From assembly GCA_029964075.1 (NCBI GenBank), contig CM057146.1, forward strand, positions 7,025,501 to 7,089,500: 64,000 nucleotides of DNA, in the 5' to 3' direction. The translations under genes were made by a program, and so were the position numbers. Shown piece after piece: positions 1-64,000 of the stretch. A model generated the notes under the pieces. That model was given only the letters and a program-made list of their open reading frames with translations. It was not told where the DNA came from and did no database searches. This DNA comes from Patiria pectinifera (lineage: Eukaryota; Echinodermata; Asteroidea; Valvatida; Asterinidae). Positions within the stretch are counted from its first letter, which is position 1. Each line of letters starts with the position of its first letter.

Positions 1-175
1 TGCATGCCACTAAACCCATGATAAAATTGTATGATGTACATGTATACATGTATACGTGTGCATGTTCAACAGACGGGTGAACACAGTCGAGGAATCCATA
101 AAAAAAAACACAGCTTGTATTATAGGCATGGGCCCTGTATTTAAAACGATAATGTTCCGACACCAAGTGACAATC

Positions 176-660
176 AAGCAAATGGCCTAGTGGTTAGGCT
201 CATTGTCGACAGACCCCGGGGTCCGGGGTTCGAGTCCCGTTGGTGTAATTTTTGGTTTTCAATACACGCGCTCTGTCATATACTTTAAGAGTCTTAATTT
301 CGTGTCGTCAAACACCAACCGACCTTAGCTCAATCAGTTAAGTCACCGGCTGGGACTGTCTGCGAAGTCCAGGTTATGCATCTACTCATAGGTACGGGGC
401 TCTTTTGCTGTCTCGGCAGCAAGGCATAGGGTGTCGCCTCGTTTCCTCCCTTAACGGTGCTTGGCCCTCCGGGGTTACATGGATGGATAGGGAAGGAGGT
501 GTGGTGGGCCGGGGAATCCGAGACCCAGGAAGAGCCCTATATGGGAGTCGGTAACCAATCGCGACCCCTGAATGCTTGGTCAACACCACATAACTTTTTG
601 TTTTTCTTTATACCCTTATTTTTTTCATATAGTCGAGAATTTATAGGGTTAAAAACGGTC
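176..660 (+). mobile_element. Composite tRNA-derived SINE-like element
   Basis: A perfect polymerase III A box (TGGCCTAGTGG, 183-193) and B box (GGTTCGAGTCC, 227-237) lie 44 bases apart, the spacing found in tRNA genes. The acceptor ends do not pair and the T stem is imperfect, so this is tRNA-derived and not a tRNA gene. A second tRNA-like segment follows (TTAGCTCAATCAG near 325), so the element may be dimeric. A conserved body of about 250 bases and an AT-rich tail follow. Closely similar copies lie near 19,500-19,985 (minus), 24,575-24,935 (plus, shortened), 49,265-49,745 (minus), 54,830-55,150 (plus, shortened) and 59,976-60,465 (plus). Confidence 0.75.
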
Positions 661-968
661 TAATAACAAAATCTTTAAGCATACACATTGATTATTGGCC
701 CGCATATTATACGTTTTATGTGTGTCATGGATACCACTAAACCAAACTCATGATAAAATCATGATAAAAATGTGCCCAGAATTAAAAACTTGTGCAAATT
801 CAGAGAGTTGCAGACGCCCTAAACTGTAAGAAAAGTACATTTTTTCTTTCAAACAAAAGATGCAAATCAAAAACTAGTTAGCCTGGAAGAAAAAGGTATG
901 TAAACAGCACGGGGTGACATCTTAACGAAAAGGTTTTCAAAGCGTCTGTCCAAAGAAATTTCGAAAGC

Positions 969-1024
969 CGCGTCGGCAGGCGGCGGGCGGTTGGCGGTGG
1001 GCGGCGGGCGGCGGGCGCTGGGCC
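969..1024 (+). repeat. G-rich CGGCGGG minisatellite block
   Basis: An impure heptamer array of CGGCGGG type lies in AT-rich surroundings. It belongs to one unit of the 1.65-kb arm repeat. It contains runs of three G separated by short spacers. Confidence 0.8.
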
Positions 1025-2580
1025 GGTTCACCGTACGGCTCGTCGTCCCCAATCCCTGGTTTGTTGTAAGACTGCACGGAGAGGTTTCGGTTTCGCGCGA
1101 GCGACTGGAAGCGGTGTTTCCGAAGGATCAAACCCGAATGCATGAACAATGTACGCTGTGACAAGTATAACGTCCAATGTGTTCGAATTCCTTGGTACTT
1201 GGAGTGATTTGAAATAATTCCATTACCGAGTGCATTGTTTAACGGTCGGACCTACGCAGGTTTGGTTTGTTGGTTAAACGAACGAAAAGTAGTTCGCCCA
1301 TAATCCGCCTCGGCGGCGTTGTTTGCCGAAACCTTCTGTTTATTAAGTGTGTTCATATTAGGATGATTATAGACAAAGAGGGTTCGTTGCTGTCGTGATT
1401 CGAAAGAATTGTATTTGATTACATAATTTATATAGTGTGCAATGACGATCAGTAGTTGTGTGATTACTTTAAGTTGATTGAGGGCGCTATTTACGTTTAA
1501 TGGCCAAGCCTACGCGCACTTTGTTTGGGGAGTTAAAGGTACGAAAAGTAGTCCTCGCGTAATTTGCTGTTTTGGTAACGCAGTACGCCAAAGCGCTACA
1601 GCTCTTGTTGAAAGCACGTGTATCATATTAAGATTAAAGATAGGAACCGCTGCATTTCTTTGATTCTCATTTCTAACCCACCCTAATTTTAGGCTCCCGA
1701 CAAGACAAACACCCCTACAACCTCTAGAACACTATTCACCGTAATGTAACAAAATGGGGAAAATAGATTCAGGAAATCAGGCTCTGTGATATTTGAAGTG
1801 ATTGAAAATTAATATCGATTTACGCGAAGTATATACGGTATAACAACCAGTGGAATCCCACAGAGGACGCCTCTCGTTAGGTGTGGGTGCAGACCTGCAA
1901 ATCGACTCCCATAGACCTCAGTGATAATAACGCGTTTTTTCCCAAAATTATTTTCAAAAAAATCATCTCAACTCTCAAAGGTGTATGACGCACCCACCAA
2001 ATCAAGGCTTATTCATTACCTTTTATTTTCTGTTCAATTTTTGTTCCACTATCCGATGACTTATGGCAGAAAATTACATCGAATGATGTCAGCCCGAAAA
2101 GATGTCACGTAGCCCATCGCCAATTTGAAAAATGATGCCTGCGCTCCATTGCAAAATAGAGCAATTTTAGGGCCCAATTTCATGCAAATTACACAGAAAT
2201 ACGAGCTCACACTCTGTATACGGCTTCTACCCATCTTTTTGGGGGAACATCAAGTTCAAGGCACACATTGGTGCTCTAATAGCAAAGAATTTAGGCATAA
2301 TTTGGCCCACATGTTATACATTTAATGTGTGTTATGGGTGCCACTCAACCAAACTCATGATAAAATCATGATAAAAATGTGTCCAGAATTAAAAACATGT
2401 GCAAAATGAAACCCCCCTTTTTAGAGGGTTGCAGACGCTTTAAATTGAAATAAAAGTACTTTTCTCTTTAAAACAAAAGATGCAAATCAAAAACTAGAAG
2501 AAAAAGGTACGTAAACAGCACGGGGTGTCATCTTATGAAAATGTCTTCAAATTGTCTGTCCAAAGAAATTTCGAAAGCCG

Positions 2581-2619
2581 CACCGCCGGGCGGCGGGCGG
2601 TTGGCGGCGGGCGGCGGGA
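2581..2619 (+). repeat. G-rich CGGCGGG minisatellite block
   Basis: This is a short impure CGGCGGG array in the second arm-repeat unit, at the same place in the unit as the block at 969-1024. Confidence 0.75.
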
Positions 2620-3550
2620 CAGTTCATCGTACGGCGCGTTGTCCCCAATCCCTGGTTTGTTGTAAGACTGCACGGAGAGGTTTCGGTTTCGCGCGAGCGA
2701 CTCGAAGCATTGATTGTTTCCAAAGGATCAAACCCCAAATGCATGAACAATGTGCGCTGTAAAAAGTGTAACGTCCAATGTGTTCGAATTCCTTAGTACT
2801 GTAGTAATTTGAAATAGTTCTATTACCGAGTGCATTGTTCAATGAATATTATTTGTGGCCATCCTCTCGATTGAGGGCACTATTTAAGTTTAACGGTCAG
2901 ACCTACGCAGGTTTGGTTTGTGAGTTAAACGTACAAAAAGTAGTTCGCCCATAGTTTGCCCATAATTCGCCTCGGCGGCGTAGTTTGCCGAAAGAGATCC
3001 TGTTTATTAAGTGTGTTCATATTAGGCTGATTATAGACGTAGCTCCATTGCAAAGTAGAGCAATATTAGGGCCCAATTTCATGCAAATTACACAGACATA
3101 CGAGCTCACACTCCTGTGTACCGCTTCTACCCATCTTAACATCAAGTCCAAGGCCCAGATTGGTACTCTAATAGCAAAGAATTTAAGCATACAAATTGTG
3201 ATTTGGCCCCGGCATTTTTATACATTTAATGTGTGTCATGGATGCCACTAAACCAAACTCATGATAAAATCATGATAAAGATGTGCCCAGAAAAAAATAT
3301 TTGCAAAATCAAACTCTTTTTTTTTCAGAGGGTTTCAGACGCCCTAAATTGGAATGAAAGTAATTTTTTTCTTTAAAACAAAAGATGCAAATCGAAAACT
3401 TGTTTATAGCCTGGAAGAAAAATGCATGTAAACAGCACGGGGTGTCATCTTTAATGTCGTTTTCCTCCATAGACCGTGCACACCCGCGGGGGTTGCCTGC
3501 GGAATATGTAACGGTCTTCAAAGTGTCTGTCCAAAGAAATTGCGAAAGCC

Positions 3551-3650
3551 GCACCGGCGGAGCTAGGGCGGGCGGCGGACGGCGGGCGGCGGGCGGCGGG
3601 CGGCGGGCGGCGGGCGGCGGGCGGCGGACGGCGGACGGCCGGCGGCGGGC
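3551..3650 (+). repeat. Long G-rich CGGCGGG minisatellite, potential G-quadruplex
   Basis: This is one of the longest G-rich blocks in the window, about 100 bases of CGGCGGG and CGGCGGA heptamers. It has many consecutive GGG runs with four-base spacers, which fits the G3 N1-7 quadruplex rule. The 134- and 177-residue open frames across it are low-complexity Arg/Pro/Ala/Gly translations of the array and are not proposed as genes. Confidence 0.85.
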
Positions 3651-5142
3651 TGGTTCACCGTACGGCGCGTCGTCCCCAAGACTGCACGGGGAGGTTCGGT
3701 TTCGAGCGATCGACTCGGAGCGTTGTTTCCGAGGGATCAAACCACAAATGCATGTATGCGCTGTCAATAGTGTAACGCCCGATAAGTAAGGCGTGTTGGA
3801 ATTCCTTGGTACTGTAGTGATTGGAAAGAGTACATTGATCAATGACGATTATTTATGGTGATACTCTCAATTGAGGGCAGTATATAAGTTTAACGGTCAA
3901 GCCTACGCATGTTTGGTTTAGGGTTAAACGTACGAAAAGTAGTTCGCCCATAATCCGTTACGGCGACGTAGTTCGCGATGATTTTAGACAAAGAGGGTTC
4001 GTTGCTGTCGTGATTCGAAAGAATTGTATACGATTACATAATTTGTACAGTGTAAAATAACGATCAGTTGTGCGATTTCTTTTAGTTGATTGAGGGTGCT
4101 ATTCAGGTTTAACGGTCAAGCATACGCGCACTTTGTTTTGGGAGTTAAACGAACGAAAAGTAGTTCGCGCATAATTTGCTGTTTTGGTAACGTAGTTCAT
4201 CGCAAAAAACAGCTCTTGTTAAATGCGTGTGTTTCATATTATGATATAAAATAGGAAAGCTGCATTTCTTTGATTCTCATTTCTAACCGACCCAATTCTT
4301 TGATAGGCTCCGGACCAGAAAAAAACTAAAACCTCGAGAACCCTATAATTTACCGAAATGTAACGAATGAAAACTATAAGAGTCAGGCAATCATGCTCTG
4401 TGATATTTGAAGTGATTGAAAATTAATATCAATTTACGCGAAGTATACGATACAACAACCAGTGGAATCCCAGAGAGGACGCCTCTCATTAGGTGTCTCA
4501 TATGACTTGTGTGCAGACCTGCAAATCGACTCTCATTGACCACTGAGTGATATTTACGCGTATTGCCGTAAATTACCTACTCACAACTCTCCAAGGTGTT
4601 TGAGACACCCACCAAATTAAAGTTCATTTCATGATCTTTTATTTTGTGTTCAATTTTTGTTTAATTATCCTATGACTTATGGGAGAAAACTCCATCAAAG
4701 GATGTAACCCCGTAAAAGTAGTCGAAATGGTATTCAAAGCGTCTGTCCAAAGAAATTTCGAAAGGTTCACCTGCGGCCGGCGGGCCGGCTCACCGTACGG
4801 CGCGTCGTCCCCAATCCCTGGTTTGTTGTAAGACTGCACGGAGAGGTTTCGGTTTCGCGGGAGCGACACGAAGCGTTGTTTCCGAAGGATCAATGCACAA
4901 TGGTTCGCCATGGAACAGTTACCTATTACTTTCTTTTACTTTTGGGTGCAACACACCATTCATAATTCGCTCTCCCGCCATTACTTTTTTTGTGAACACG
5001 AAATCGCTATTTTAACTTCTCCGCTTTTGTTCCAATATCGCTATACAAAGAGCGAATAGGGCACACACCGCTTTACCCGATCAACCTGCATTTAGACGGT
5101 GTCTGGGTCTGCAGGATTGGAAGCGAGATACGGTATTGAAAC

Positions 5143-5403
5143 CAGTGGCGCACCCAGGATTTTTTTGGGGGGCGGGGGCTCACATTTTGTTCAAAAATTA
5201 TTATTATTTTTTTTTAGGGGGCGGACTATTTTGACTTTGGTGGCGCCACTTTACACCCCTATTGCGAAACTAACGACCCTGTTATACTATTCGACAATAG
5301 TCCACATACATATCACCAAGGTCAAATCGTGGGACTACAAAAATAAAAATTAAAAAATTAACAACCTCAAGCCCCCGAGCCCCCCCCCCCCCTTGCGCCA
5401 CTG
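5143..5403. mobile_element. hAT-like MITE with 8-bp target duplication
   Basis: The ends are inverted: the left starts CAGTGGCGCAC and the right ends TGCGCCACTG. The flanks are ATTGAAAC (5135-5142) and ATTCAAAC (5404-5411), an 8-bp target duplication with one mismatch, as expected for the hAT superfamily. Poly-G and poly-C tracts lie just inside the ends and there is no coding capacity. A paralogous insertion sits at 30705-30970. The matching site near 57,985 is empty, so the insertion postdates the arm repeat. Confidence 0.8.
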
Positions 5404-5870
5404 ATTCAAACTAGAACAGAAACCCCCAGCAAGAATAGTTTGAGATAGGGGTGGTTCCTCCTGCAATTCGGCGTAAACAAAGAATGCGTTACAAATTACG
5501 TAACAGAGTGCGCGCTGTCAATAGTGTAACGTCCCGTATTGAAAGAGAAAGTACGGCGTGTTGGAATTCCTTGGTATGGTAGTGATTCGAAAGAATTATT
5601 TTACCGAGTAGGCCTATATGTGATACTCTCAGTCATTATTGAGGGCACTATTTAAGTTTAACGGTCAAACCTACGCAGGTTTGGTTTGGGTGTAAAACGT
5701 ACGAAAAGTAGTTCGCGCATACTAATTAGCCGTTTCGTGGACGTAGTTCGCCGAAAGAGCTGCAGTGTTCATATTAGGATTAAAGATAGATAAAGGGGTT
5801 CGTTGCTGTTGTGATTAGGAAGAACTGTATATGATAACATAATAATTGCACAGTGTGCAATGGCTAGTCT

Positions 5871-7802
5871 GGTTCCCAGACCAAAATATTCTGACTATTC
5901 CTGACGAATCTTAGGGATGCACACCGGTAAATAGGCCTAAATCCATCCGCCGAGCTCCTGAATTAAAGTTATACCATCAAAATATTCCATATTAGAGAGT
6001 TCTGAGAGCCATAACATTGGGGAATTGAAGAGATATGGCAATGAACCTCTGGCCCGGACCGGACTTGGGGCTTTCAATTCTGAGCATTTTGGATGCAATT
6101 GGGCTCGAAAGTGGTGTTTTTGTGCCATGTTGTGGAGGGATCGTTGTTGATCATCATTGTTCTGTGCAGCTTAAATACCTGTGAATTTTGAAATATGGGC
6201 ATTTAGCACTAGTATCTTTGGGAATTTTAATGCCGGGTTGCACCCTTAGGTCGTAACCGCTAGTAATACATTGCAGTACAAAACACCGTCACGTGACTAA
6301 AACGGGCGGAATGCCTCCTGTTTCCAAAAATGACCGACGTTTGCCGAATGTATTTCGTCGACAATCTCGGATAGCGCCAGGTATTTACGAGTATAACATG
6401 GGTTTTATTTACCCACCTTGCGTATTAAAAACTATGAGTTCACAATAAATATTAATAATTACTTGTGTTTAGAAAACTTGATATTCAATGACGATTTTGT
6501 GCATCAAATACTCGGATCGCACGAAAGGCGAGCTTTGCTGCGTCATGTACTAATTTGAATCTGACAACGGTTAACTGTGATTTTCCAAAACGCGGCGTGG
6601 TCTCCATTTTGGCTTCGCCTGCTATGTGCTATTTGGGCACGTAACTTTTAAGATTTCAGATCAAAATTAGTCATGGTTTTCTTACAGTAATAACAGAGTG
6701 TATAATGTTATGGAGCAAGTGATTTTTTTCTTAAATTTGATCGGAACGTATCAAGGCTATATATTATGATGAAGCCAGATCGGATCGAAACGAAGCCGAG
6801 CTTTGAAAAAGGGGCGTGATCAATGTCGCGATGTTTATTTTGAGCCGCGGTTATTGCCTGACCTACAATATTTAGGGGTGCAACCCTGCATTAAAATTCC
6901 CATAAGCACCTGTGCTAACTTGAGTGCCCATACTTCAAAATTCTTTTTAAAATACTCAGAACTCTGACAGGTATTTCAGCTGCACAGAAATATGATTACC
7001 GACGTGTTATCTTTCATTTTCTTTTTATTTTTTTGGTGGACGGTTGACAATTGACTTTTTGAGATAATCCCACCCAGGCATCTTGAAAAACTATCCTTAC
7101 ACAACACATAGAAGTAGCCAGCGGGGCGGGGGGGGGGGGGGGTTAAGGGGTGTATCCCCCCCCCCCATATTTTGTAAAGACTACCCTTTTCCATTAAAAT
7201 GACCTTTTTTTCACCAACGTTTACCCTTTTACCAAGTGCCCTTTTTCTGAACAAGTGCCCTTTTTAAAAAGAACTCGAGCCCTTTTTGCCCCATCAGCCT
7301 TTTCTCGGCTGGTGCCGATTTTGTAAAATCGCGCATGTATCGTCCTGAAAAGCACCATGTACGTTTTCGCTATAACGGAAGCCGACTGTGTTGTCCATTA
7401 GTGTGCAACATCGTCGGTTTTGAACAACGCCCCCATCGACAGATGGACAGATGCACACACAACATAAAGTGAGTAATTTTACTCATTATCGTATCAGGTA
7501 TTATGATAATGCGCCAAATTACTCACTCTGTGTTTTTGTGTGATCCCCCCCCCCCCAAAAAAAAACCTACTTGATTTTACGGAGGCCAAGCGTCCGGGAA
7601 AACGAGTGTCTACATTTCAGCACGGACTGTGCAAGAGCCCTTTTCAAGAAGTTTTACCCCCCCCCTAAAAATGACCTCTGCAACATGGCAAAATAGCGCC
7701 ACTTTCGAGCCCAATTGCATCCAAAATGCTAAGGTTGCGAAGCCCCATAAGTCCGTGCCAGAGGTTCATTGCCATATCTCTTCAATTCCCCAATCTTATT
7801 GA
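5871..7802. mobile_element. Foldback element with a nested insertion in its right arm
   Basis: The sequence at about 6011-6255 is repeated inverted at about 6867-7000 and 7679-7802. Paired stretches include GGGGAATTGAAGAGATATGG on the left and its complement near 7,780. The right arm is split by about 675 foreign bases (7,005-7,678) with long G and C runs. The loop at 6256-6866 shows no convincing reading frame. The right end abuts the start of the lectin cassette flank. No transposase is visible, so the superfamily is unknown. Confidence 0.7.
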
Positions 7803-8492
7803 AACCAAAATTGGGATTCTGACGTCTGTGCCCATTGACTGCCCGTGGAGAATTGTTTAAATAATTTGGGTGGTTCATGTATTTCTATTAAAATAGAGTG
7901 AATGATGCAAATTACGTGATTTGTTTTTAGAGTTACTAAAGTCAATAACATACATGTATGTACTTTATTACCATGATATTTTTGTATTCAATGGAGCAAG
8001 CCACATATCTTTTTAGTGCTTTTTCTATCTCGGTCATTGTCTTATTGACAACCTGGAGCTATACAGACACATTGACGGATAACAAACACATTGACGGATA
8101 ACCACTGATTTACTAAACAATGATAACAATTTGAGCTTTTAACTCATTCCAAATTTTTACATCAAGAAAAATACGTCATTTTTATTTTATCCACCATGTA
8201 GTCTAGTAGAGATGACAGAAGAAATCTCTAACCGAGGGCCGGATCGTGAGTGAGCACACGAACAGGTACAATGACGGGGATAATCTGTGATTCTCTAAAT
8301 TAATCTAAAAATCCTTCGACTCGGTTCCTTCTATAATGCTTCCGAGTCGAAAAAGGGTGTAATTGAGAGAGAAGTCTGATATTAATTGTTTGAGCATTGA
8401 CGGCAAGTGATGTGAATTGTGATTCATTGCAGTCTGAGACAATAATTATTGCCCAACCATTGACGGCAAGTGATCTTTCACTTGAAATCTTT
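7803..8492. other. Left flank of lectin cassette 1 and 3' region of gene A
   Basis: The first 170 bases recur at 34,100 and at 63,836 in the same orientation, which defines the array period. The part at about 7,830-7,975 is also present inverted at about 13,575-13,690, so inverted sequence reaches close to the genes. The rest is the presumed 3' untranslated and downstream region of the minus-strand gene A. An AATAAA on the minus strand at 8181-8186 is a possible poly(A) signal in this copy, but it is not preserved in cassette 2. Confidence 0.6.
8315..8351 (-). other. Conserved hairpin downstream of gene A
   Basis: TTCGACTCGG (8315-8324) and CCGAGTCGAA (8342-8351) form a perfect 10-bp stem with a 17-base loop. 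The element lies about 140 bases past the gene A stop, and stem and loop are unchanged at 34749-34785 in cassette 2. It could be a 3' untranslated structure or a terminator-like element. Its function is not known. Confidence 0.5.
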
Positions 8493-9232
8493 CTACAGTT
8501 CAAAATAGTAACAGTTGTTGGTTGCCTTATAGTCGGTGACATCAGCCACAAGACGAGTGACGTCATTGAGTTGACACATCTTTTCTCTTTCAGTGTTGCT
8601 CTGCCAGAGATTAAAGGAGCGGCATCGGGGATCGGCTAGGCACGCCCAGCCACAGGCAAGCACGCCATCTTCCGTCCGATTCTTGATGTCGTGATGGAGG
8701 AGGCATTGCTGGGGGACCCGCCCATCAGGACCGGTGAAGGTGTGGTAGGCTGGCATCGCAGAGACCGTCATCTCACAGGCTGCAGGTTTGCGGTTGCTGC
8801 TACCGCAAGGAACGCTGTCAGACCACGAGCCCCCGCCACCGTACACAGTCATTCGGGCGCAGTTACGCTGGTTGTTGGTGCTCGGACGGCCAGGATACCA
8901 ATTTGAAAAAGACAGAGGTTGACCCCCGCACAGCCAGGTACCCTCTTTGGCCGCATCCGTACAGCCGACCCACACACCGTCAGTCCGTGGTCCCACTGAC
9001 TTCCAGATGAAGTCGTTTTCTTCCCGCGAGTTGGGCACGGCCAGACTGCTTCCCGGTCGGTTACAAGCCTCCGAGGCCTCAAACCATTCATCTTGTCCGG
9101 TAGTAAGATATAGCAAGATTGCTGCCATTTCAGCCAGCCAGGCGGACATGAGGCGTAAAGGGCCTGGCAACTTGGTAAATTGATGAAGACCGAGACAAGC
9201 ATCAGAACAAACCTTGCTGTCCACCAAGCCAT
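8493..9232 (-). pseudogene. Gene A copy 1: secreted CTLD-PAN lectin, frameshifted
   Basis: This is the paralogue of the intact gene at 34922-35653. Translation from the ATG at 9230-9232 gives a hydrophobic leader (MAWWTARFVLMLVSVFINLP) and the start of a C-type lectin domain (SCPPGW, QSCY). The frame is lost near 9085-9087, where one A is missing compared with cassette 2. Beyond it the second frame carries the rest of the CTLD (EACNRPG, WVGC, SFSNW, WSDSVPC, ACEM) and a complete PAN/apple-like domain ending at 8493. The leader is three residues longer than in cassette 2. The single indel could be a real inactivating mutation or a sequencing error, because the rest of the frame is open. Reads would decide. 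Confidence 0.85.
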
Positions 9233-9271
9233 CGTACCGTTGAATGTTGCCAACTTTACGTGTGTATGATC

Positions 9272-9279
9272 TTTTTATA
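9272..9279 (-). promoter_or_regulatory. TATA box of gene A copy 1
   Basis: TATAAAAA reads on the minus strand 40 bases upstream of the ATG. The box is conserved at 35693-35700 in cassette 2, with the same distance to the ATG. Start of transcription about 28 bases downstream would leave a very short leader RNA. Confidence 0.6.
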
Positions 9280-10537
9280 CTCACTGCAATTTGAAATCGT
9301 GTGCTTAGTTTAAGGAGGCATATAAAGTGCACTAAATTATTCATCTCAAGTACTGCTAATAACCACCATACGCCTGCATTCGTTGGTAGAAGAGAAACCA
9401 TGGTGACGAAATGTAATACTTCAGGAAAACAAATTCCCAATGAGGCAACCGTTTAAAGTATCATTGCATTATATACATACATAGTATAACAATGAAGTAT
9501 ATCAGTACAAACACAATTATTGTTCCAGTGAGAGACACTGAACAAAAATAAATTTTATTCTGATATTCTGAAACTATTGAAAATATATTCTGAAAATTCG
9601 AAGAAAACGGCAAATGCATCTTCCTAAATTTTAGAGCTGATAGAGATTTTGTTTCCTCTTTTTGCAATGACGCTCCATCATAACAGACAGAAAACAAAAC
9701 CTGGTTGCATAAGGCCTTACTAGAGAACATTTTACTACAATTATAATATTTTTCCACATTAAGAAAGCAACGACGGAAAATCTTGAAAATGTGCTTCACA
9801 ACTGGTAGGTTTCTTTCTCGTCAGGTCTTTTCATTTGTTAAATTGTTGAGATCAAGGGAAATATCTCACGACAGTTTGTTTGTTAACCATGCTTTGCATG
9901 ATGACGAAAACACGCAATTATCATGACGGTGACAACAGCGCTTGACTGGTAAGTGAAGAAAACGCTTCAATTATCTTGCTTTAACTGGTCGACAATTAGT
10001 CAATTACCACGACAATAATAGCTTTGTTGAGTGTACTGCCTCCAAGGTCAGAGAGTTTATTGATGTGGAACATATGAAATAATGGAAGTCAGGGGCGTAT
10101 GGTTTCCATGGTAAAGCGTCAATAAGTAAACGATTTTACGGTCTGCCTAAAGTGTATGTTTTTTATGAGTTTGTGATGTGGTTGAGAAAACAACCGGCAA
10201 GACTCAACGCTCCTACATGTACGCTTTAAGTTGTTTGTCTTTAGGAGAATGCTGGGCTTTTACAGAGGAAAGGGTTTTAATACTATATCCAGGTTGTTCA
10301 CCAGTCTTGTGCCATGTTCCCTGTAGGTAACATGCAGAGTGCTATACACGCCGAGGTTACTTGATCTGTGAGGTCACTGTCAGTGGAATTTTGGGACCTG
10401 AGTAAAAAAAAAAATACACGTACGTGTATGTATTGCTTCAGTCCTCGAAATCCTCTTCAGTCCAGAGAATCCCAACTTCTTAATCACAGCAATGACTCTC
10501 AGACGAAGAGGCTTTCTTCTGGTAAATTTTCGGCCGG
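9280..10537. other. Intergenic region between lectin fragment and gene A, cassette 1
   Basis: This matches 35,701-37,322 of cassette 2 apart from the MITE inserted there. It contains a 112-codon open frame (9461-9799, minus) with a hydrophobic C-terminus. That frame starts with GTG and differs at about nine residues from its cassette 2 copy, so I do not call it a gene. No other feature is recognised. Confidence 0.5.
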
Positions 10538-10711
10538 TTAAGCCTCCGATGCCTCAAACCAATTCATCTTGTCCGTTAGTAAGATGTAACAAGATTGCTG
10601 CCATTGCAGCCAGCCAGGCGGACAGGAGGCGTAGAGGGCCTGACAGACTGGTAAACTTATGAAGATCAAGACTAGCATCGGAGAACAACTTGCTATGATA
10701 AACCATGCCAT
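10538..10711 (-). pseudogene. Truncated lectin fragment C, copy 1
   Basis: From the ATG at 10709-10711 the frame gives a leader like that of gene A (MAWFI..., LPVCQA) and the first part of a CTLD (SCPPGWLQWQQSCYILL, NWFEASEA). A TAA at 10538-10540 then ends it. At that point the GT of the gene A sequence GCTTGTAACC is missing, and homology to gene A stops about ten bases later. There is no splice donor at the break. Upstream of the ATG the same frame contains a second leader-like stretch (CVLIFINIPS), suggesting a small internal duplication. It is best read as the 5' remnant of a third lectin gene. Confidence 0.8.
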
Positions 10712-10777
10712 GCTTGGTATATTGATGAAGATCAAGACACAACTAAAATCAAAATGTCTGAACACTATCCACTCCAA

Positions 10778-16970: not shown

Positions 16971-17172
16971 TACTCGGTCATACAATATTCTTTCCAATCA
17001 GTACAGTACCAAGGAATTTGAACACATTGGGCGTTACACTTTTGACAGCGCACATTGTTCATGCATTTGGGGTTTGATCCTTTGGAAACAAAGCTTCGAG
17101 TCGCTCGCGCGAAACCGAGACCTCTCCGTGCAGTTACAACGAGGGATTGGGGACGACGCGCCGCACGGTGAA

Positions 17173-49264: not shown

Positions 49265-49745
49265 TTACTGTAGATCTACCTTATAAATTCTTGACTAAAG
49301 GGAAAAAATAAGGGGATAAAGAAAAACAAAAAGTTATGTGGTGTTGACCAAGCATTCAGGGGTCGCGATTGGTTACCGACTCCCATATAGGGCTCTTCCT
49401 GGGTCTCGGATTCCCCGGCCCACCACACCTCCTTTCCTATCCATCCATGTAACCCCGGAGGGCCAAGCACCGTTAAGGGAGGAAACGAGGCGACACCCTA
49501 TGCCTTGCTGCCGAGACAGCAAAAGAGCCCCGTACCTATGAGTAGATGCATAACCTGGACTTCGCAGACAGTCCCAGCCGGTGACTTAACTGATTGAGCT
49601 AAGGCGGTTGGTGTTTGACGACGCGAAATTAAGACTCTTAAAGTAAGTGACAGAGCGCGTGAATTGAAAACCAAAAAATGACACCGACAGGACTCGAACC
49701 CCGGACCCCGGGGTCTGTGAACAATGCGCCTAACCACTAGGCCAA
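49265..49745 (-). mobile_element. Composite tRNA-derived SINE-like element
   Basis: Very similar to 19,497-19,985, with the complement of the B box near 49,690 and the A box near 49,733. Parallel position in the arm shows it was inserted before the units duplicated. Confidence 0.75.
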
Positions 49746-50873: not shown

Positions 50874-50989
50874 GGTCCTGAGACGCAATGACGTCAGGCT
50901 TTGTTAACATGTGCGTTTTCCTATGAGAGCCAGCTCTCACAGGAAAGCGCACTTTTAAACAAAGTGTTACGTCATTACATCTTAGGTCT
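50874..50989. mobile_element. Palindromic MITE with CRE-like sites
   Basis: Full copy of the element at 20781-20897, at the parallel position in the second array unit. It includes ATGACGTCA-like arms and the GTGCG...GAGAGC hairpin with one changed base. Confidence 0.75.
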
Positions 50990-52590: not shown

Positions 52591-54829
52591 AAGAAATAAT
52601 TAAGTTTCTAAACGTCTTTGGATTCTAGGAAAATACCAATTGGATAATCAATGTTCGAGGTGATTGGATAATCAACGCACAAATGGCATGGGGACACATC
52701 TTTATCAATTGGACCTGTAATATTTTCGGCTTTTGCACCCCCCCCCCCCTCCGCAACAACAAAACATTGTATCGTGAACTCGCAACTTTTAGAGCAGTAC
52801 AAACGTTCTTCACTTTTGCATATTTATAAGACATGATAGGTTGGTTCCCAAAACCCTATCATGTTCAATATGAATGGACTAGAAACCAGTTCAGTTGTTC
52901 GGCGAATCTGTCTGTGCGCAAACGCAACCTGAGATAAAAAGCTACTTATTTGGACCCCCCCCCCCCCAACAAAAAAATAATAATAATAAACTGGTTTTTG
53001 GGGGGTTGGGGTGCGGGATTGAGCAGCATTCAAAAGAAGTGATAATGAAAGAACTAGAAAATAATTGGGTACATTTAAAGAAAAAGGGTTGAAAACATTG
53101 CCCAAACACGTCCAAATATTGTGTCATAAATGACGCTTTTTTTTGGCTGCTCCTATCTAACTTGCAATGTGTGTTTTAGGGCACCCTAAAATAATAGCAT
53201 TTAATAGGGAGCGTAAATAACACATTCTAATTGCTTTCATTCTGTACTGTAGTTTCATCAGATTCATATCGTACATCCAATTCAACCCTGGCTTTCTCAG
53301 CTAAAGCGCACATGTAAACACAGAGTGACGTCATTATGTCTGAGGTCTACTGGGCGACATGCAGACACTGAGTTTCAGTACCGTATACACTTATCTTTCT
53401 TGCCATGCAACGGGCCTACACCGCCCAAGCACAGGTTAATAAAAGCCGGTATATGCCCCATTCGCTCTTGTATCACGATATTGGAACAAAAGCGGAGAAG
53501 TTGAACAGGCGAAGGCTTCTCAATCGCGTTTTGAACAAAAAAATTACGTAACGGTCGCGACTATACGAAAAGTGCGCTGAACCAATCGTGAAACAAAGAC
53601 CGTATCTTGAAAGAAACTCTTCCACGGTCCCAATGATTTGATCCTCTGCAAAGAAACGGTGAACAATCGTATTTCGGAAACAAAGCTCAAGAGTCGCTCG
53701 CGCGAGACCGAAACCTCTCCCTGCAGTCTTAGAATAGACGTCCTGACCAACGTAACATGCTCCATAAATACTCATATAGACAGCTATCGTCCCTCGACTA
53801 TGTAAATGTACGGCACTCGTAGTCTCGTACGGTGAGCCGGGCCAGCCGCTTTCAAAAAGCCTTCGGCAAAACACTTTTGCGATTCGTGATAAAAAAAAGC
53901 GAAATTTGAACCTGTCTTACAGATGTTAACTTAAAATTCTACAACAAAATAAATTGAAAGAACAAACAAGGTCAAAGTGAAAAGAAAGAGGAAAGATTGA
54001 TCGAGCTGTCAGTGTTACTTAAATAGGGACTTACCTGTTCAAATGTTTCGTTAGAAGTCAGCTCAGTTAAGTTCATTTATTTCCAGTGTTCACAAATCAG
54101 TATGTTGCAATGTATACGTGTGCATGTACAAAAGACGAGTGGAAACTGAAGAGGAACCATAAGAAAACACAGCTTGTACAATTGGCATGGGCCTAATATC
54201 ACACTAATGTTCAGACACCAAATGCCAATACTAAAGAAAAATACTGTATTCAGCGAAAAAAAAAGGTTTACATGCAAAGGTAAACAAGGGTAGGCCTAGT
54301 CATGTACATACCAATAATTGCATAATTACGTAAGGAATAAATAACTATACAGTTTCATATTTCAAAGTAAACATTCAGCAAAATAGATTTGTAAACATGT
54401 AGAACTTCTTCAAGAATCAGTGGAGAGTACTATAACTTGGTTCCCTTGTAGTTAATATGTTTTGAAGCCAAAAAAGTAGTAGATGGCGGATGGAAATGAA
54501 TAGTTTGCCGAGTAGAGCGACAATATTGAAACTCCGACAAGCAAAATTAATGTATTGAAGAGTATAAGGTACAGGAAATAGACCGATTACATTGCGGGAA
54601 AAAACGGCGAATATACCGTATAGCCTACGAAAAAAAAATTCAACCAAAGTGAATTTTAATGAAACGGGGTCGTTTACGAGACATTTAAATCGTTTGTTTA
54701 TGACGGGAGTTTAGAAGTTTAGAGGTTTGTTTTCATGCACGTTTTTGAAGGCAAAGCGCAGACTAAGCTGAGAAGTGTTTCCAACTATATATTAACACTC
54801 AGAGGTTAAAAGACTGTATAATTAAATTA
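52591..54829. repeat. Core left arm of palindrome 2
   Basis: Parallel to 22,331-24,540 and inverse to 55,490-57,400. Poly-C and poly-G tracts (near 52,738 and 52,955) and a retroelement-like tail (near 54,060) are shared with palindrome 1. Confidence 0.75.
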
Positions 54830-55489
54830 CCTGGTGGTTAGGCTCCTTGTCCACAGACCCAGGGTTCGAGTCCCGTTGGTGTAATTTTTGGTTTTCAATA
54901 CACGCGCTCTGTGATTTACTTTAAGAGTCTTAATTTCCCGTCGTCAAACACCAACCGACCTTAGCTCAATCAGTTAAGTCACCGGTTGGGACTGTCTGCG
55001 AAGTCCAGGTTATGCATCTACTTATAGGTACGGGGCTCTTTTGCTGTCTCGGCAGCAAGACATAGGGTGACCCCTGAATGCTTGGTCAACACCACATAAC
55101 TTTTGGTTTTCTTTATCCACTTATTTTTTTCCCTAGTGGAGAATTTATAAGGTACAGTAAAAACGAAAAGGTTTTCTTTAAAAAATAAATTTAAATAATA
55201 TTTAACTAATGTAACAGCTTTACCAGCATTTCCATTTCTGCGGGTCCCTATTTGCTACTTGGTAGAAAGCAAATATTGATAAAGTGTCTTGCCCAAGGAC
55301 AACACCCAAATAGCAAGGCCCCAAGTGAGAGCCGGAAAAAATCTTGACAAAAATAAAGGCTTTCTGCAACTTTGCGAAAAAGCCAAACATTGCAAACACT
55401 ATATAGGCGAATAAGGCGACATTTTGACACGTAGACATAATTATCATAGGCTAAACAAGTATAATAGGAAGCACTTGGAGGATTGTTAG
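54830..55489. repeat. Unpaired centre of palindrome 2 with shortened SINE
   Basis: This has the same design as 24,541-25,290: a SINE copy with a GGTTCGAGTCCC B box and a reduced body, followed by AT-rich sequence. The flanking TTTAGAGGTTTG (54,719) and its complement (near 55,530) mark where the arms begin to pair. Confidence 0.7.
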
Positions 55490-57400
55490 CTCAATCTGCG
55501 CTTTGCCTTCATACATGCATTGGAAACCTCTAAACTTCTAAACTCCCGTTATAAACAAACGATTTAAATGACTTGTAAACGAACCTGCTTCATTAAAATG
55601 CATTTTTGTACCCTTGTTTATCTTTGCATGTAAACCTTTTTCTCTAAATGCAGCATTTTGGCTTTATTGTCACTTGGTGTCTGAACACGTGTTCAAGGGC
55701 CCATGCCTATAACGCATAGGCTAGTTTCAACTCCTCTGTTGCAATGTACATGTACACCCATATACATTATGTATTGTAACACACTGATTTGTGAACACTG
55801 GAAATAAATGAACTGAACTGATCTGACTTCTAACGAAACGTTTGAACAGGTAAGCCCCTGTTTAAGTAACACTGACTGCTCGATACTTTCCTCTTTCCTT
55901 TCACTTTGACCTTGCCTGGTTTATTAATTTATTTTTTTGCAGAATTTTAAGTTAACATTTTGTAAGGCAGGTTCGATTTTCACTGTCGTTTTTTCATCAA
56001 GAATCGCAAAAGTGCTTTGCTGAAGGCATTTCAAAAGCGGCGGGCCCGGCTCATCATATACGAGTGCCCAATTTACATAATCGAGGGACGGTAGCTGTAT
56101 GAGCATGTTATTAGTCACGATGTGTTGTCTATTCTTAGTACGCTTTGCTTTAAGACTGCGGGGAGAGGTTTCGGTCTCGCGCGAGCGACTCTTGAACTTT
56201 GTTTCCGAATACGATTGTTCACCAGTTTCTTTTGCAGAGGATCAAATCATTGGTTTCACCGTGGCAGAGTTGCTTTCAAGATACGGCCTTTGTTTCACGA
56301 TGGCTGCAGCGCATTGTTCGTTTTATTACGTAACCTTTTTGTTCAAACCGTATGATGTATGAATGGGAAGCCTTCGTCTGTTCAACTTCTCCGCTTTTGT
56401 TCCAATATCGTGATACAAGAGCGAAGGGGGCATATACCGGCTTGTATTAACCTGTGCTTTGGCGGTGTAGGCCTGTTGCGTGGAAAGAAAGATACATCTG
56501 CATGTCGATGGTATTGAAACTCAGTGTCTGCATGTCGCCCGATAGACCTCAGGAATAACGACGTCACGCTTTGTTTACATGTGCGCTTTGCTATGAGAAT
56601 CTGATGTAGGACATGAATTTGTTGAAATTTATACTACAGTACAAAATTAAAGCAAGTAGAACGTGTTATTTACGCTCCCTATTAAATGATATTATTTTAG
56701 GTTGGCTTACAAACACACATTAGCAAATTAATTGGGAGCAGCTAAAAAGGGTCATGTGCGACAAATCTTTGGAAGTGTTTGGAAAACGGTTTTTTTTTCT
56801 TCAGGCCTTAACGTACCCAATGATCTTTCAGTTCTTTCCTTATCACTGTTTTCTTTGGATGCTCAATCCCCCCGAATACAAATCTTCCTCTTTATTCTTC
56901 TTATTTGTTTGTGGGTTTTTTTTGGGGGGGGGGGTTCCCAAATAGGTAGGTTTTTATTTCAAATTGGGTTTGCGCACAAACAGTTCCGCCGAGCAACTGA
57001 ACTGAACATCAAAAAGCGTCATTTATGTGGAACTTGTTTAAAAAAAACAAACAATATTTGGGGGGGGGCCAAATTTGTACCTTTCAGGTTCCGTTATTGA
57101 ACTGGTTTCCAGTCCATTAGCCTAATATCAAACATGATAGGTGGTTCCCAACCTATCGTGTCGTATAAATATGCAAAAGTGACGAACTTTTGTACTGCTA
57201 GAAAACTTGCGATTTCACAATAAAATTATTTTGTTTTTTGAAGGGGGTGAGCAAAATCTAAACAGATCATACGTTCAATTATTATAAAGATGCGTCCCTA
57301 TGCCATGTTCGAGTTTCACCTCGAAAGTTGATTGTCCAATTGCTATTCATAGAATCCAACTACGTTTAGAAACTGAAAAATTTCTTTATAAATCGATTTA
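55490..57400. repeat. Core right arm of palindrome 2
   Basis: Inverse of 52,591-54,829, with a single uninterrupted copy of the stretch that is doubled around the gap in palindrome 1. Confidence 0.75.
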
Positions 57401-58724
57401 TTTGCGGCCAGATATTAATTCGGCTCTTGCAGGGTGGGTTCATTTTTATCTGCAACAAATCGAAAACTAGTAAGCCTTTTAAGAAAAAAGGCAGGTAAAC
57501 AGCACAGGTTGCTATCTTTAATGCCCCCCCCCCCCCACAACCGTGCACACCCACGGCGGTTGCTTGCGGAATACGAAAAGGTCTTCAAATTGTCTGTCCA
57601 AAGAATTTTCGAAAGCCGCACCGGCAGGCGGCGGGCCGGTTCACCTAATCCCTGTTTTTTTGTAAGACTGCACGGAGAGGTTTCGGTTTCACGCGAGAGA
57701 CTCGAAGCGTTGTTTCCGAAGGATCAAACCCCAAATGCATGCACAATGGTTCACCGTGGAAAAGTTACATAATACTTTCTTTTACTTTTGGGTGGAAAGC
57801 GCCATTCATTTTTCGCTCTCCCGCCGTTACGTAACTTGTTTTGTGAACGCGAAGTCGCCAGTTCTACTTCCCCGCTGTTGTTCCAATATCGCGATACAAA
57901 GAGCGAATAGGGCACACACCGCTTTACCCGATCAACCTGTATTTGGACGGTGTTCGGGTCTGTTGCATTGGAAGCGAGATACGGTATTGAAACAAAACAG
58001 AAACGCCCCAGCAAGTACATTTAAAGTGGAATACATGCATTTGGAGCTTGCTGGAATTTTACTCACTGAGAAAAAAGAAAATCGGTTAAAACCTTGGCTC
58101 TGTCAAGATGCCACAGATTAATTGGGACACACATACGCAACGGCAGGGGCGGCAGGAGGCCATTTGCCCGCCCCCGCCCACCCCCACCCCCCAAAAAAAT
58201 AACCTCCATGTCTTTATTTTTTTAGGAAGCCAAAGCGTACATCATTAAAATTGTGCTACCATGCAACAATGCCATGAAGAGCCCTCCCTATTCCTTTTCA
58301 TATCAAGTTTGGGGCGTAATATTTTAGACACAAACAGTTTGACCCACCCTATAATAAAACACGGACCACCCTTAAAAAACCCACAATGTTCTGGATTTAG
58401 CCTTGTACATACGTGGGCGCGAGACCAGTACCGAACTGAATGGTCGCGCCTCTTGAAACGAATTGTTGATTGCAAGTAGGGAAACAAAAGAGGAATAGTT
58501 GAGATAGGGGTGCTTCCTCCATCGAGAGTGAAGCTGAATACTGCAATTCGGCGTAACAATCAATGCGTTAATAATTACGTAACAGAGTGCGCTGTCAATG
58601 GTGTAACGCCCGACGTTGAAAGAGAAAGTAAGGCGTGTTCCTTGGTACTGAAGTGATTGGAAAGAATTCTATTACCGAGTACATTGTTCAATTGTGATTA
58701 TTTGTGGTGATACTCTCAGGCAAT

Positions 58725-58840
58725 AGACCTAGGACGTTATGACGTAACGCTTTGTTTAAAAGTGGGCTTTCCTATGAGAGCTGGCTCTCATAGGAAAGCG
58801 CACATGTAAACAAAGCCTGACGTCATTACGTCTCAGGACC
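58725..58840. mobile_element. Palindromic MITE with CRE-like sites
   Basis: Inverted-position counterpart of the copy at 50874-50989 across the palindrome 2 centre, with TGACGTCA at about 58,818-58,825. Being present on both arms, it was inserted before the palindrome formed or was copied by conversion. Confidence 0.75.
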
Positions 58841-59975
58841 ATTGAGGGCACTATTTAAGTTTAACGGTCAAGCCTACGCAGGTTTGGTTTGGGGGTTAAA
58901 CGTACGAAAAGTAGTTCGAGCATAATTATCGTTTCGGCGTAGTAGCTCCTGTAAATTACGTGTGTTCATAATACCATTATAGATAAAGGTTGTGTGATTG
59001 CTTTAAGTTGATGTAGGGCGCTTATCAAGTTTAACGGTCAAGCCTACGCGCAGTTTGTTTTGGGAGTTAAACGGACGAAAAAAAGCTCGCGCATAATTTG
59101 CTGTTTTTGGTAACGTAGTTCGCCAAAACAGCTCGTGTTAAAAGTACGTGTGTTTCATATAGGACAGTAAAAAATCTAGAATCTTCAGAACCAAATGGTA
59201 ACAAATGGGGATAGTGTAGTATAACTATTAGAATCAACCATTAAAGGCTCTGTGATATTTGAAGTGATTGAAAATTAATATATCGATTAACGCGAAGTAT
59301 ACGGTATAACAACAACCAGTGGTATCCCAGAGAGGACGCCTCTCATTAGGTGTCTATATGAGTGAAGACCTACAAATCGACTCCCGTAGACCTCGATGAT
59401 AATTACGAGTATGTCCGTAAATTATTTACAAAAAAATACTCACACCTCTCAGAGGTGTTTGAGACACCATCCAAATCCAAGCTTATTTTGTTATCTTTTA
59501 TTTTCTGTTCAATTTTTGTTCAATTATCCAATGACTAATGGGAGAAAATTCCATCAAAGGGTGTCAGCCCGAAAATGAGTCCATTGGCCCATCGCCATTT
59601 TGAAAAATGATGTCTGCGCTCTATTGCAAAGAGCAATATAAGAGCCAGATTTCATGCAAATTGCAAATTCCTGTGTACGGCTTCCAACCCTCTTCTTATC
59701 AAGTTCAAGGCCCACAACGGTGATTTAATAGCAAATAATTTTATGCATCCAAATTGTGAATTTGGCCCGCATATTATACCTTTAAAGTGTGTCATGGATG
59801 CCACTAAACCAAACTCATGATTATTGTATGATGTACATGTATATACGTGTACGTGTGCATGTACAACAGACGGGTGAACACAGTCGAGGAATCCATAAGG
59901 AAACACAACTTGTATTATAGGCAAGGGCCCTGTATTGAAAACGATTATGTTCAGAAACCAAGTGGCAATCAAGCA

Positions 59976-60465
59976 AATGGCCTAGTGGTTAGGCTCATTG
60001 TCCACAGACCCCGGGGTCCGGGGTTCGAGTCCTGTTGGTGTAATTTTTGGTTTTCAATACACGCGCTCTGTCATTTACTTTAAGAGTCTTAATTTCGCGT
60101 CGTCAAACACCAACCGACCTTAGCTCAATCAGTTAAGTCACCGGCTGGGACTGTCTGCGAAGTCCAGGTTATGCATCTACTCATAGGTACGGGGCTCTTT
60201 TGCTGTCTCGGCAGCAAGGCATAGGGTGTCGCCTCGTTTCCTCCCTTAACGGTGCTTGGCCCTCCGGGGTTACATGGATGGATAGGGAAGGAGGTGTGGT
60301 GGGCCGGGGAATCCGAGACCCAGGAAGAGTACTATATGGGAGTCGGTAACCAATCGCGACCCCTGAATGCTTGGTCAACACCACATAACTTTTTGTTTTT
60401 CTTTATACCCTTATTTTTTTCCTATAGTCCAGAATTTACAAGGTTAAAAACGCTCTAGTAACAAA
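59976..60465 (+). mobile_element. Composite tRNA-derived SINE-like element
   Basis: The A box TGGCCTAGTGG (59,979) and B box GGTTCGAGTCC are intact. The body is almost the same as at 176-660, and this is the inverted partner of 49,265-49,745. Confidence 0.75.
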
Positions 60466-61567
60466 ATCTTTCAGCATACACATTGATTATTGGCCCGCAT
60501 ATTATATGTTTAATGTGTGTCATGGATACCACTAAACCAAACTCATGAAAAAATCATGATAAAAAATGTGCCCAGAATTAAAAACATGTGCAAATTAAAC
60601 TCCTTTTTCAGAGAGTTGCAGACGCCCTAATCTGTAATAAAAGTACATTTTCTCTTTCAAACAAAAGATGCAAATCAAAAACTAGTTAGCCTGGAAGAAA
60701 AAGGTATGTAAACAGCACGGGGTGACATCTTAAACGAAAAGGTTTTCAAAGTGTCTGTCCAAAGAAATTTCGAAAGCCGCGTCGGCGGGCGGGCGGCGGT
60801 TGGCGGCGGGCGGCGGGCACTGGGCCGGTTCACCGTCCGGCGCGTCGTCCCCAATCCCTGGTTTGTTGTAAGACTGCACGGAGAGGTTTCGGTTTCGCGC
60901 GAGCGACTCGAAGCGGTGTTTCCGAAGGAGCAAACCCCAATCCATGAACAACGTACGCTGTGACAAGTATAACGTCCAATGTGTTCGAATTCCTTGGTAC
61001 TGTAGTGATTTGAAATAATTCTATTACCGAGTGCATTGTTTAACGGTCAGACCTACGCAGGTTTGGTTTGTGGGTCACACGTACAAAAAGTAGTTCGCCC
61101 ATAATTCGCCTCGGCGGCGTTGTTTTGCGTTGTTTGCGTTGTTGTTAGGATAATTATAGACAAAGTTGGTTCGTTGCTGTCGTGATTCGAAAGAATTGTA
61201 TTTGATTACATAATTTATACAGTTTGCAATGACGATCAGTAGTTGGGTGATTTCTTTAATTTGATTGAGGGCGCTATTCAAGTTTAATGGTCAAGCCTAC
61301 GCGCACTTTTTTTGAAAGCACGTGTATCATATTAGGATTAAAGATAGGAACCGCTGCATTTCTTTGATTCTCATTTCTTACCGACCCTAATTTTAGGCTC
61401 CCGACCAGAAAAAAACCTCGAACCTCTAGAACAAAAGTACATTTTCTCTTTGAAACAAAAGATGCAAATCAAAAACTAAAAGAAAAAAAGGTACGTAAAC
61501 AGCACGGGGTGTCATCTTTACGAAAATGTCTTCAAAGTGTCTGTCCAGAGGAATTTCGAAAGCCGCA

Positions 61568-61625
61568 CCGGCGGGCGGCGGGCGGCGGGCGGCGGGCGGC
61601 GGGCGGCGGGCGGCGGGCGGCGGGA
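61568..61625 (+). repeat. Pure CGGCGGG heptamer array, potential G-quadruplex
   Basis: About eight consecutive heptamers form the purest array in the window. GGG runs are separated by CGGC, which satisfies the G-quadruplex pattern. Confidence 0.85.
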
Positions 61626-63835
61626 CGGTTCACCGCACGGCGCGTCGTCCACAAGCCCTGGTTTGTTTTGTTAGACTGCACGGAGAGGTTTCGGTTTCGC
61701 GCGAGCGACTCGAAGCGTTAATTGTTTCCAAAGGATGAACCCCAAATGCATGAACAATGTGCGCTATAAAAAGTGTAACGTCCAATGTGTTCGAATTCCT
61801 TGGTACTGTAGTGATTTGAAATAATTCTATTACCGAGTGCATTGTTCAATGAATATTATTTGTGGTGATCCTCTCGATTGAGGGCACTATTTAAGTTTAA
61901 CGGTCAGACCTACGCAGGTTTGGTTTCAGTGGGTTAAACGTACAAAAAGTAGTTCGCCCATAATTCGCCTCGGCGGCGTTGTTTGCCGAAAGAGCTCCTG
62001 TTTATTACGTGTGTTCATAATAGGATGATTATAGACAAAGAAGGTTCGTTGCTGTCGTGATTCGAAAGAATTGTATTTGATTACATAATTTGTACAGTGT
62101 GCAATGACGATCAGTAGTTGTGTGATTACTTGAAGTATTGAGGGCGCTATTCAAGTTTAATGGTCAAGCCTACGCGCACTTTGTTTGGGGAGTTAAAGGT
62201 ACGAAAAGTAGTTCTCGCGTAATTTGCTGTTTTGGTATAAACGCAGTTCGCCAAAACGCTACAGCTCTTGTTGAAATCACGTGCAAGGATTAAAGATAGG
62301 AACTGCTGCATTTCTTCGATTCTCATTTCTAACCTACCCTAATTTTAAGCTCCCGACAAGACAAAAACCCTTAGAACCTCTAGAACACTATTCACCGTAA
62401 TGTAACAAATGGGGATAATAGATTCAGGAAATCAGGCTCTGTGATATTTGAAGTGATTGAAAATGAATAACGATTTACGCGAAGTATACGGTATAACAGC
62501 AACCAGAGGAATGCCAGAGAGGATGCCTGTTGTTCGGGTGCAGACCTGCACATCGACTCCCCGATAGACCACAGTGATAATAACGCATAATTATTTCCAA
62601 AAACTAGTTTAAAAATACTCTCAACTCTCAAAGGTGTTTGACGCTCCCATCAAATCAAGGCTTATTCATAAATCTTTTATTTTCTGTTCCATTTTTGTTC
62701 AATTATTCGGTGACTTATGGGAGGCAATTACATTGAATGATTTCACCCAAAACGTTGTCCCGTAGCCCATCGCCATTTTGAAAAATGATGCCTGCGCATT
62801 TTTAGCTTCCAATTTCATGCAAATTACACAGACATACGAGCTCACACTCCTGTGTACGGCTTATACCCATCTTTTTTTTTTAAACATCAGGGTCAAGGCC
62901 CAGATTGGCACTCTAATAGCAAAGAATATAAGCATACAAATTGTGATTTGGCCCGCATATTATATATTGAATGTGTATCATGCATGCCACTAAACCAAAC
63001 TCCTGATAAAATCATGATAAAGATATGCCCCGCAGAAAAAAAATTGCAAAATGAAACTCTTTCTTTTTCAGAGGGTTTCAGACGCCCTAAATTTTAATAG
63101 AAGTGCATTTTCTCTTTAAAACAAAAGATGCAAATCGAAATTGGAAGAATAAGGTATGTAAACAGCACGGGGTGTCATGATCTTTACAAACAGGTCTTCA
63201 ACGTGTTAAACTGACCGGCGGGCGGCGGGACGGTTCACCGTACGGTGCGTCGTCCCCAAGCCCTGGTTTGTTGTAAGACTGCACAGAGAGGTTTCGGTTT
63301 CGCGCGAGCGACTCGAAGCGTTAATTGTTTCCAAAGGATCAAACCCCAAATGCATGAACAATGTGCGCTGTCAAAAGTGTAACGCCCAATGTGAGGCGTG
63401 TTCGAATTCCTTGGTACTGCTACCGAGTGCATTGTCCTGTGAATATATTATTTGTGGCGATGCTCTCAATTGAGGGCACTATTTAAGTTTAACGGTCAAG
63501 CCAACGCGTATTTTGTTTTGGGAGTTAAACGTACGAAAAATAGTTCGCACATAATTTGCTGTTTTGGTAACGTATAGTTCGCCAAAACAGCTCTTGTTAA
63601 TTGCGTGTGTTTTATATTAGGATTAAAGATAGGAACCGCTGCATTTCTTTGATTCTCATTCAATTTTGATGACGTCATCATGTTTCACAGGTCACCGTAC
63701 AAATAGTTATCATATCTTCCCCTCTCTACTTTGTATCTATTCAAAAACCATTACGCCATTCACATTTGAAAGAAAAACTTTTTGGAAAAAATGAGCTAAT
63801 TATCAAAATAATTTTTCATCGAAACCGTTTGAAAC

Positions 63836-64000
63836 CAAAAGTGGGATGTTGACGTCTGTGCCCATTGACTGCTCGTGGAGAATGATATCGTCTCAATAAT
63901 TGTGTGGTTCATGCATTGTAAAGAAACAACGCATGAATGATGCAAACTACGTGATTTGTTTTTAGAGTTACTATAGTCAATAACATACATGTATGTAATT
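63836..64000 (+). other. Start of a third lectin cassette (noncoding edge)
   Basis: The sequence matches 7,804-7,975 and 34,100-34,265 in order and orientation (for example CTGACGTCTGTGCCCATTGA-like text). The palindrome therefore leads into another cassette. Its genes would lie beyond the window. Confidence 0.75.

Follow-up and report, generated by a model that had tools for sequence, protein, structure and literature searches.

A tandem array of CTLD–PAN lectin genes in Patiria pectinifera with foldback-like palindromes between its units

The window is the whole stretch of P. pectinifera DNA analysed here, 64,000 nucleotides of contig CM057146.1 (labelled C18 below; C18:7025501–7089500) in a genome of 613.5 Mb and 1,020 contigs. 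We also read the surrounding 259.5 kb (C18:6970001–7229500) as an array region and compared it with itself. The window contains two kinds of intronless lectin gene, A and B, which encode CTLD and PAN domains, together with long inverted repeats. In window coordinates its features are:

1–6,180, minus strand: right arm of a palindrome that crosses the window's left end, whose outer edge, at about 6,180, is sharp and in common with a lone arm on C2
8,496–9,274, minus strand: gene B, first copy, frame broken into two overlapping frames (8,496–9,452 and 8,852–9,274; frameshift)
10,502–10,714, minus strand: 'fragment C', what is left of the 5' end of a B gene (residues 7–70 of B, one stop; C18:7036002–7036214)
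12,415–13,140, minus strand: gene A, first copy, 241 amino acids, single open frame with CTLD and PAN
15,829–24,052, plus strand: left arm of palindrome 1
25,384–30,693, minus strand: right arm of palindrome 1
26,310–26,809, no strand: 500-N assembly gap in palindrome 1
34,922–35,653, minus strand: gene B, second copy, single open frame with CTLD and PAN and an alternative loop block
40,410–64,000, no strand: part of a 30-kb repeated segment (C18:7065910–7095808)
43,874–44,599, minus strand: gene A, second copy, single open frame
46,767–54,292, plus strand: left arm of palindrome 2
55,609–63,891, minus strand: right arm of palindrome 2

Gene A and the second copy of gene B each combine CTLD and PAN in one open frame and exceed the Pfam cut-offs for Lectin_C (2e-13 and 1.8e-14) and PAN_1 (1.2e-4 and 1e-4). 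The first B copy matched Lectin_C in one of its frames, with PAN_1 slightly below cut-off, and gene A additionally matched UL45, a Pfam family described as C-type lectin-like. The N termini of the array copies are hydrophobic, and the lectins are predicted to be secreted. Calcium-dependent sugar-binding C-type lectins carry an EPN or QPD motif. By eye, neither motif is present in the array copies, whose loop triplets are RPS, NPH, NPR or YPS, and we therefore do not assume sugar binding; any immune role is putative. Stops were found in three of five gene-B 5' remnants of the fragment C type. Fragment C lies near a cassette repeat at 11,546–11,989, whose coordinates are lower than those of gene A and which has 81–84% matches on six further contigs. 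The window contains no tRNA and no Rfam family that reaches the gathering score.

Searching the genome for the lectin family returned at least 152 matches (150 of 1,205 candidates scored) on many contigs, including C18, C14, C9, C6, C3, C16 and C12. The CTLD–PAN family is very large; its genes have a single open frame, and it forms many tandem clusters, such as one with 20 listed matches at C6:8.89–8.99 Mb.

The 259.5 kb read holds six direct lectin units; a seventh unit is inverted and partly broken. Each direct unit has a B gene followed by an A gene in plus coordinates, both on the minus strand. Gene starts on C18 are:

Direct B-type genes: 7002739, 7033996, 7060425, 7090157, 7120328 and 7154377 (steps of 26.4–34.0 kb)
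Direct A-type genes: 7008113, 7037918, 7069377, 7096524, 7126169, 7133587 and 7160590 (steps of 27.0–31.5 kb and one of 7.4 kb, the latter an additional A copy)
Inverted A: 7180990, with its frame altered near the C terminus
Inverted B: 7198681

A first-pass annotation, made from the window alone, had described cassettes in one orientation at a spacing of about 26–30 kb, with a third copy beginning at 63,836. Both observations hold: the spacing within the window is 26.4 kb from B to B and 31.5 kb from A to A, and the third cassette starts at about 63,829, its B gene (C18:7090157) falling just beyond the window end. Self-comparison of the window and its flanks, which that annotation had proposed as a check, confirmed the repeat structure across the 259.5 kb. 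The array thus consists of several multi-kilobase unit copies in the same orientation, as in a tandem segmental duplication. A 30-kb segment (C18:7065910–7095808) recurs 64.2 kb away at C18:7130121–7160068 with 98.5% identity, differing by 0–1.7% substitutions per 2 kb except in the last 2 kb (4.5%), whereas long matches between the remaining units are approximately 3.5–9% different.

Using the lone C2 arm as a probe, we found one arm in plus and then one in minus orientation in six of six intervals, that is, the five between direct units and the one before the inverted unit. The palindromes lie on C18 at approximately:

7010–7032 kb
7041–7057 kb (palindrome 1 of the window)
7071–7089 kb (palindrome 2 of the window)
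7099–7118 kb
7135–7153 kb
7163–7180 kb

Five of the six are gap-free, the exception being the second. Palindromes of about 17 kb had been proposed between the cassettes, a size that fits palindrome 2, which is contiguous from 46.8 to 63.9 kb with its centre at about 54.9 kb; palindrome 1 spans only about 14.9 kb (15.8–30.7 kb), and because of the 500-N gap no contiguous sequence joins its arms. Palindrome 2 is made of nested inverted matches, from the outermost (46,767–47,191 with 63,891–63,469) to the innermost (52,887–54,292 with 57,004–55,609), and its main pieces show 77–89% identity between arms. Inner arm pairs are 77–87% identical and enclose a spacer of about 1.3 kb. As no inverted match at E ≤ 1e-10 appeared in any of ten trials in which the window, stripped of N, was dinucleotide-shuffled, the palindromes are not a product of chance. 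The inverted sequence had also been said to reach the cassette edges, 7,830–7,975 pairing with 13,575–13,690. An inverted match does exist there (7,905–8,014 with 13,622–13,524; 113 columns, 74%), as a small repeat outside the long arms.

For the most part, left arms and right arms form distinct lineages. In the tree of a 1.1-kb arm segment, six left arms split from five right arms with support of 95/92, and the C2 copy fell with the right arms. The split was weaker in a second segment (six left and four right arms; 77/92, in 80% of bootstrap trees), where one left arm (C18:7164419) was drawn with the right arms at an open fork. A third segment of 460 bp (seven left, eight right) has starred branches that force two changes per side, with the left arms of the six palindromes staying together (98/97). 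Same-direction arm matches of at least 1 kb average 91.5% identity (77 pieces, 79.0–96.5%), compared with 85.3% for inverted matches of that length (84 pieces, 78.6–90.6%). Together, the left–right split and the lower inverted identity indicate that the arms had mostly separated before the units multiplied. The idea that the arms form a homogenizing or gene-converting palindrome is accordingly not supported, opposed arms being less alike than same-side arms in both trees and identities, with the open fork and the short segment as exceptions. Judging from that open-fork arm and the forced changes in the third segment, local exchange between left and right arms may have occurred.

The arm repeat is dispersed through the genome. 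A probe from the outer arm (48,320–51,708) gave at least 192 matches (27 of 2,683 candidates scored), and one from the inner arm and centre (51,709–55,300) at least 136 (22 of 1,356 scored), the array itself being included in both. Among the inner-arm and centre matches listed, copies with opposed arms outside the array were found at eight places:

C18: 2.79–2.80, 2.875–2.883 and 4.978–4.983 Mb
C10: 18.750–18.759, 18.780–18.787 and 18.808–18.817 Mb
C3: 17.950–17.958 Mb
C6: 17.351–17.355 Mb

Among the lectin matches listed, none lies within 100 kb of any of these eight places, and the closest is about 0.18 Mb away (from the copy at C18:4.98 Mb). The copies on C3, C6 and C10 have about 70–84% identity over pieces of at least 400 bp, below the identity between units of the array. 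Single arms also occur: one of about 8.1 kb at C2:5.380–5.388 Mb, for which no partner was found in the 10 kb fetched or among the inner-arm and centre matches listed, and a shorter one at C3:6.165–6.169 Mb. We did not count C2:4.236–4.239 Mb as an opposed-arm copy; both orientations are present there, but the inverted pieces are those of the palindrome middle only. Arm modules and opposed-arm copies are dense at C10:18.68–19.17 Mb, without lectins among the matches listed.

The outer edge of the arm is sharp at the one edge observed. A 24-mer at this edge (6,155–6,178) occurs 540 + 501 times genome-wide at up to 3 mismatches, against 0 + 0 for the control. With more than 1,000 occurrences, the arm edge itself belongs to a high-copy repeat, which is perhaps a separate element; the 24-mer sometimes appears in same-strand pairs 887 bp apart. 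Internally the arms are modular and repetitive, with GC-rich heptad arrays (29 doubled-heptad clusters in 259.5 kb). Of ten frames scanned, from the arms or from intergenic sequence, nine had no Pfam match, and the tenth, an intergenic one, had a single match below cut-off. With no protein domain recognized in these ten frames, we set aside the idea that the arms make up a gene or an autonomous transposon. They do have some features of foldback elements, namely long, internally repetitive inverted repeats flanking a middle part in multiple dispersed copies. We therefore describe them as a dispersed foldback-like repeat; 'foldback transposon' expresses a likeness, and a transposon origin is putative.

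The two lectin genes differ in how they vary. Seven A copies have 98.8–100% protein identity to the window's first A, and their pooled pN/pS of 0.25 does not support gene A as a diversifying gene; we propose that it is under purifying constraint or is homogenized. Six intact B copies gave a pooled pN/pS of 0.54, with 0.80 in a 27-codon loop segment (pN 0.137, pS 0.172) and 0.47 elsewhere (pN 0.042, pS 0.091). The loop is higher in both measures, a pattern that suggests replacement of a block and not point selection. Mismatches between B2 and B1, B3 or B4 are concentrated, with 21–22 in one 60-column stretch against a maximum of 15–17 in 2,000 shuffles; B6 and B4 differ by 16 in one such stretch (shuffle maximum 15), and clustering was not in excess for B1–B3 (p = 0.19) or B2–B6 (p = 0.11). 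Outside the loop block, B genes are mostly 85–100% identical per 60 columns.

The loop block of B2 has 88–92% identity to those of the distal B6 and of the C18:7658752 copy, and 68–70% to those of B1, B3, B4 and B5. Those of B1 and B3 are 85–90% like four copies at C18:6.09–6.12 Mb, and those of B4 and B5 are 93–100% like B1 and B3. The B copies (C18:7002739–7199436) thus appear as mosaics with a CTLD-loop block of about 60 bp, of which at least two types are common to paralogues 0.6–1 Mb away. As an AU test did not reject a B1–B6 clade in the CTLD (p = 0.138), the case for loop exchange is built on the clustered mismatches and on the particular paralogues to which the block is closest.

We then compared the arms with four 10-kb lectin stretches outside the array, three around loop-sharing paralogues (L029, L030 and L031) and one on C14 (L032), taking the best non-overlapping matches. 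A long arm match was absent from all four, the best being 320 columns at 66% (L030), apart from 211 bp that belong to the high-copy edge repeat. Since the surroundings of loop-sharing paralogues have no long arm match, block exchange seems not to need the palindromes. The diversity signature is located in the body of gene B and is not tied to them.

Between genes A and B (12,415–13,140 versus 34,922–35,653) the PAN-coding part has much lower synonymous divergence, with a pS of 0.16 for the pair A1 and B1 compared with 0.47–0.64 in other parts, and it is comparably alike across C14 and C18 paralogues. CTLD and PAN trees are broadly compatible in their groupings, so the low pS does not establish ongoing conversion or homogenization of PAN; an old mosaic origin, conversion or a lower rate may each account for it.

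We consider the locus to be, with a probability of roughly 0.8, a tandem segmental duplication array whose unit had acquired a foldback-like repeat. The ancestral unit of about 30 kb would have held two diverged intronless CTLD–PAN genes, A and B, on the same strand together with a palindromic dispersed repeat. Recombination between direct unit copies, by unequal crossing-over or replication slippage, would have raised the number of units to at least six in direct orientation and one inverted, and the palindromes would have multiplied as passengers. B lectins would have exchanged short blocks around the loop among paralogues while A was constrained or homogenized. The direct orientation, the roughly regular steps and the 98.5% identical 30-kb copy fit duplication between direct repeats.

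Alternatively, hairpins or cruciforms formed by the palindromes could stall forks and break DNA, so that lectin units amplify or convert more than elsewhere. A palindrome in every interval is what such a role would predict, and the single inverted unit at the distal end, the very recent look of the 30-kb copy and the left arm that groups with right arms would be in keeping with it; an arm-module locus at C3:17.49–17.52 Mb, 11–22 kb from a lectin, also counts against a passenger role. Nevertheless, the six units are direct rather than alternately inverted, divergence is greater across a palindrome than between units, and even the inner arm pairs, at 77–87% identity, flank a spacer of about 1.3 kb. 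Opposed arms lie at eight places away from any listed lectin, and several genes are also found in lectin clusters whose sampled stretches have no long arm match. We regard this active role as distinctly unlikely, although the palindromes may contribute to local instability. It is the reading of the first-pass annotation, which had suggested that inverted arms favour hairpin-mediated amplification and gene conversion and could form a system for diversifying or expanding secreted recognition proteins. An expanded lectin array with long inverted repeats between units and diversity in the B loop block is indeed present, but the arms do not emerge as its driver: the repeat is dispersed, one arm stands alone, and opposed arms occur more than 100 kb from any listed lectin; left arms for the most part form a lineage apart from right arms, units are direct and gene A is conserved; and the B loop block matches loci with no long arm match nearby.

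Part of the array could instead be an assembly artefact, through uncollapsed haplotypes or a scaffolding error at the N gap in palindrome 1. The 0–1.7% divergence per 2 kb of the 30-kb pair (4.5% in the last 2 kb) could be allelic when compared with the heterozygosity of other animals, and this youngest duplicate could be an uncollapsed haplotype. We consider an assembly artefact in part of the array unlikely, given the 3.5–9% differences in long matches between the other units and the gap-free sequence of five of the six palindromes. Least probable, and in our view very unlikely, is a local origin in which inverted duplication of the unit made the arm pair and the dispersed copies are later arm transpositions. 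The C2 arm does fall among right arms in one segment tree, but the opposed-arm copies on C3, C6 and C10, at about 70–84% identity, are less alike than array units are to each other.

The duplication array with a captured repeat has partial counterparts elsewhere. Ampliconic palindromes, for example on mammalian Y chromosomes, are gene-bearing regions with large inverted repeats. In this array, unlike that type, the arms do not contain the genes; they are mostly 77–87% identical and show no general evidence of conversion from one arm to the other. The SpTransformer (185/333) genes of the purple sea urchin are, in the part of the account we draw on, clustered immune genes, some segmentally duplicated and surrounded by repeats, with proposed local instability (PMC10887614). 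Clustering, segmental duplication and surrounding repeats are shared with our locus; that account describes short tandem repeats, 4.3-kb duplications and other proteins, whereas here there are CTLD–PAN lectins, units of about 30 kb and kilobase-scale inverted repeats. Tetris foldback elements (PMC4079207) and the foldback-like Galileo (PMC4168063) are described, in the portions consulted, as dispersed, structurally diverse copies with long inverted arms, internal repeats and a middle part, and the same portion on Tetris reports copies without conserved ORFs (PMC4079207). The array repeat is likewise dispersed, with long, internally repetitive inverted arms around a middle part; it differs, as far as those descriptions go, in arms of about 8 kb, and the likeness rests on arm structure and dispersal. 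Bivalves have a large expansion of C-type lectin genes (PMC10140915), which this locus resembles, on a partial view of that source, while differing as an intronless CTLD–PAN subfamily with one cluster that carries palindromes. In the largely open-access literature on CTLD–PAN lectins, lectin gene conversion, inverted-repeat immune arrays and foldback elements, we found no account of this locus.

A bolder and rather unlikely possibility is a two-speed recognition locus, in which A would stay constant and paralogues as far as about 1 Mb away would serve as templates for short block exchanges that rewrite the B loop, with captured foldback-like palindromes raising local breakage, such that copy number and loop type would vary among individuals. 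The duplication array with its captured repeat carries a more general message: a striking layout of loops between palindromes can come from ordinary parts, a duplicated gene block carrying a foldback-like repeat. The real signal of diversity is distinct from that layout and lies in gene B, where a block has been swapped over what is presumed to be the ligand loop.
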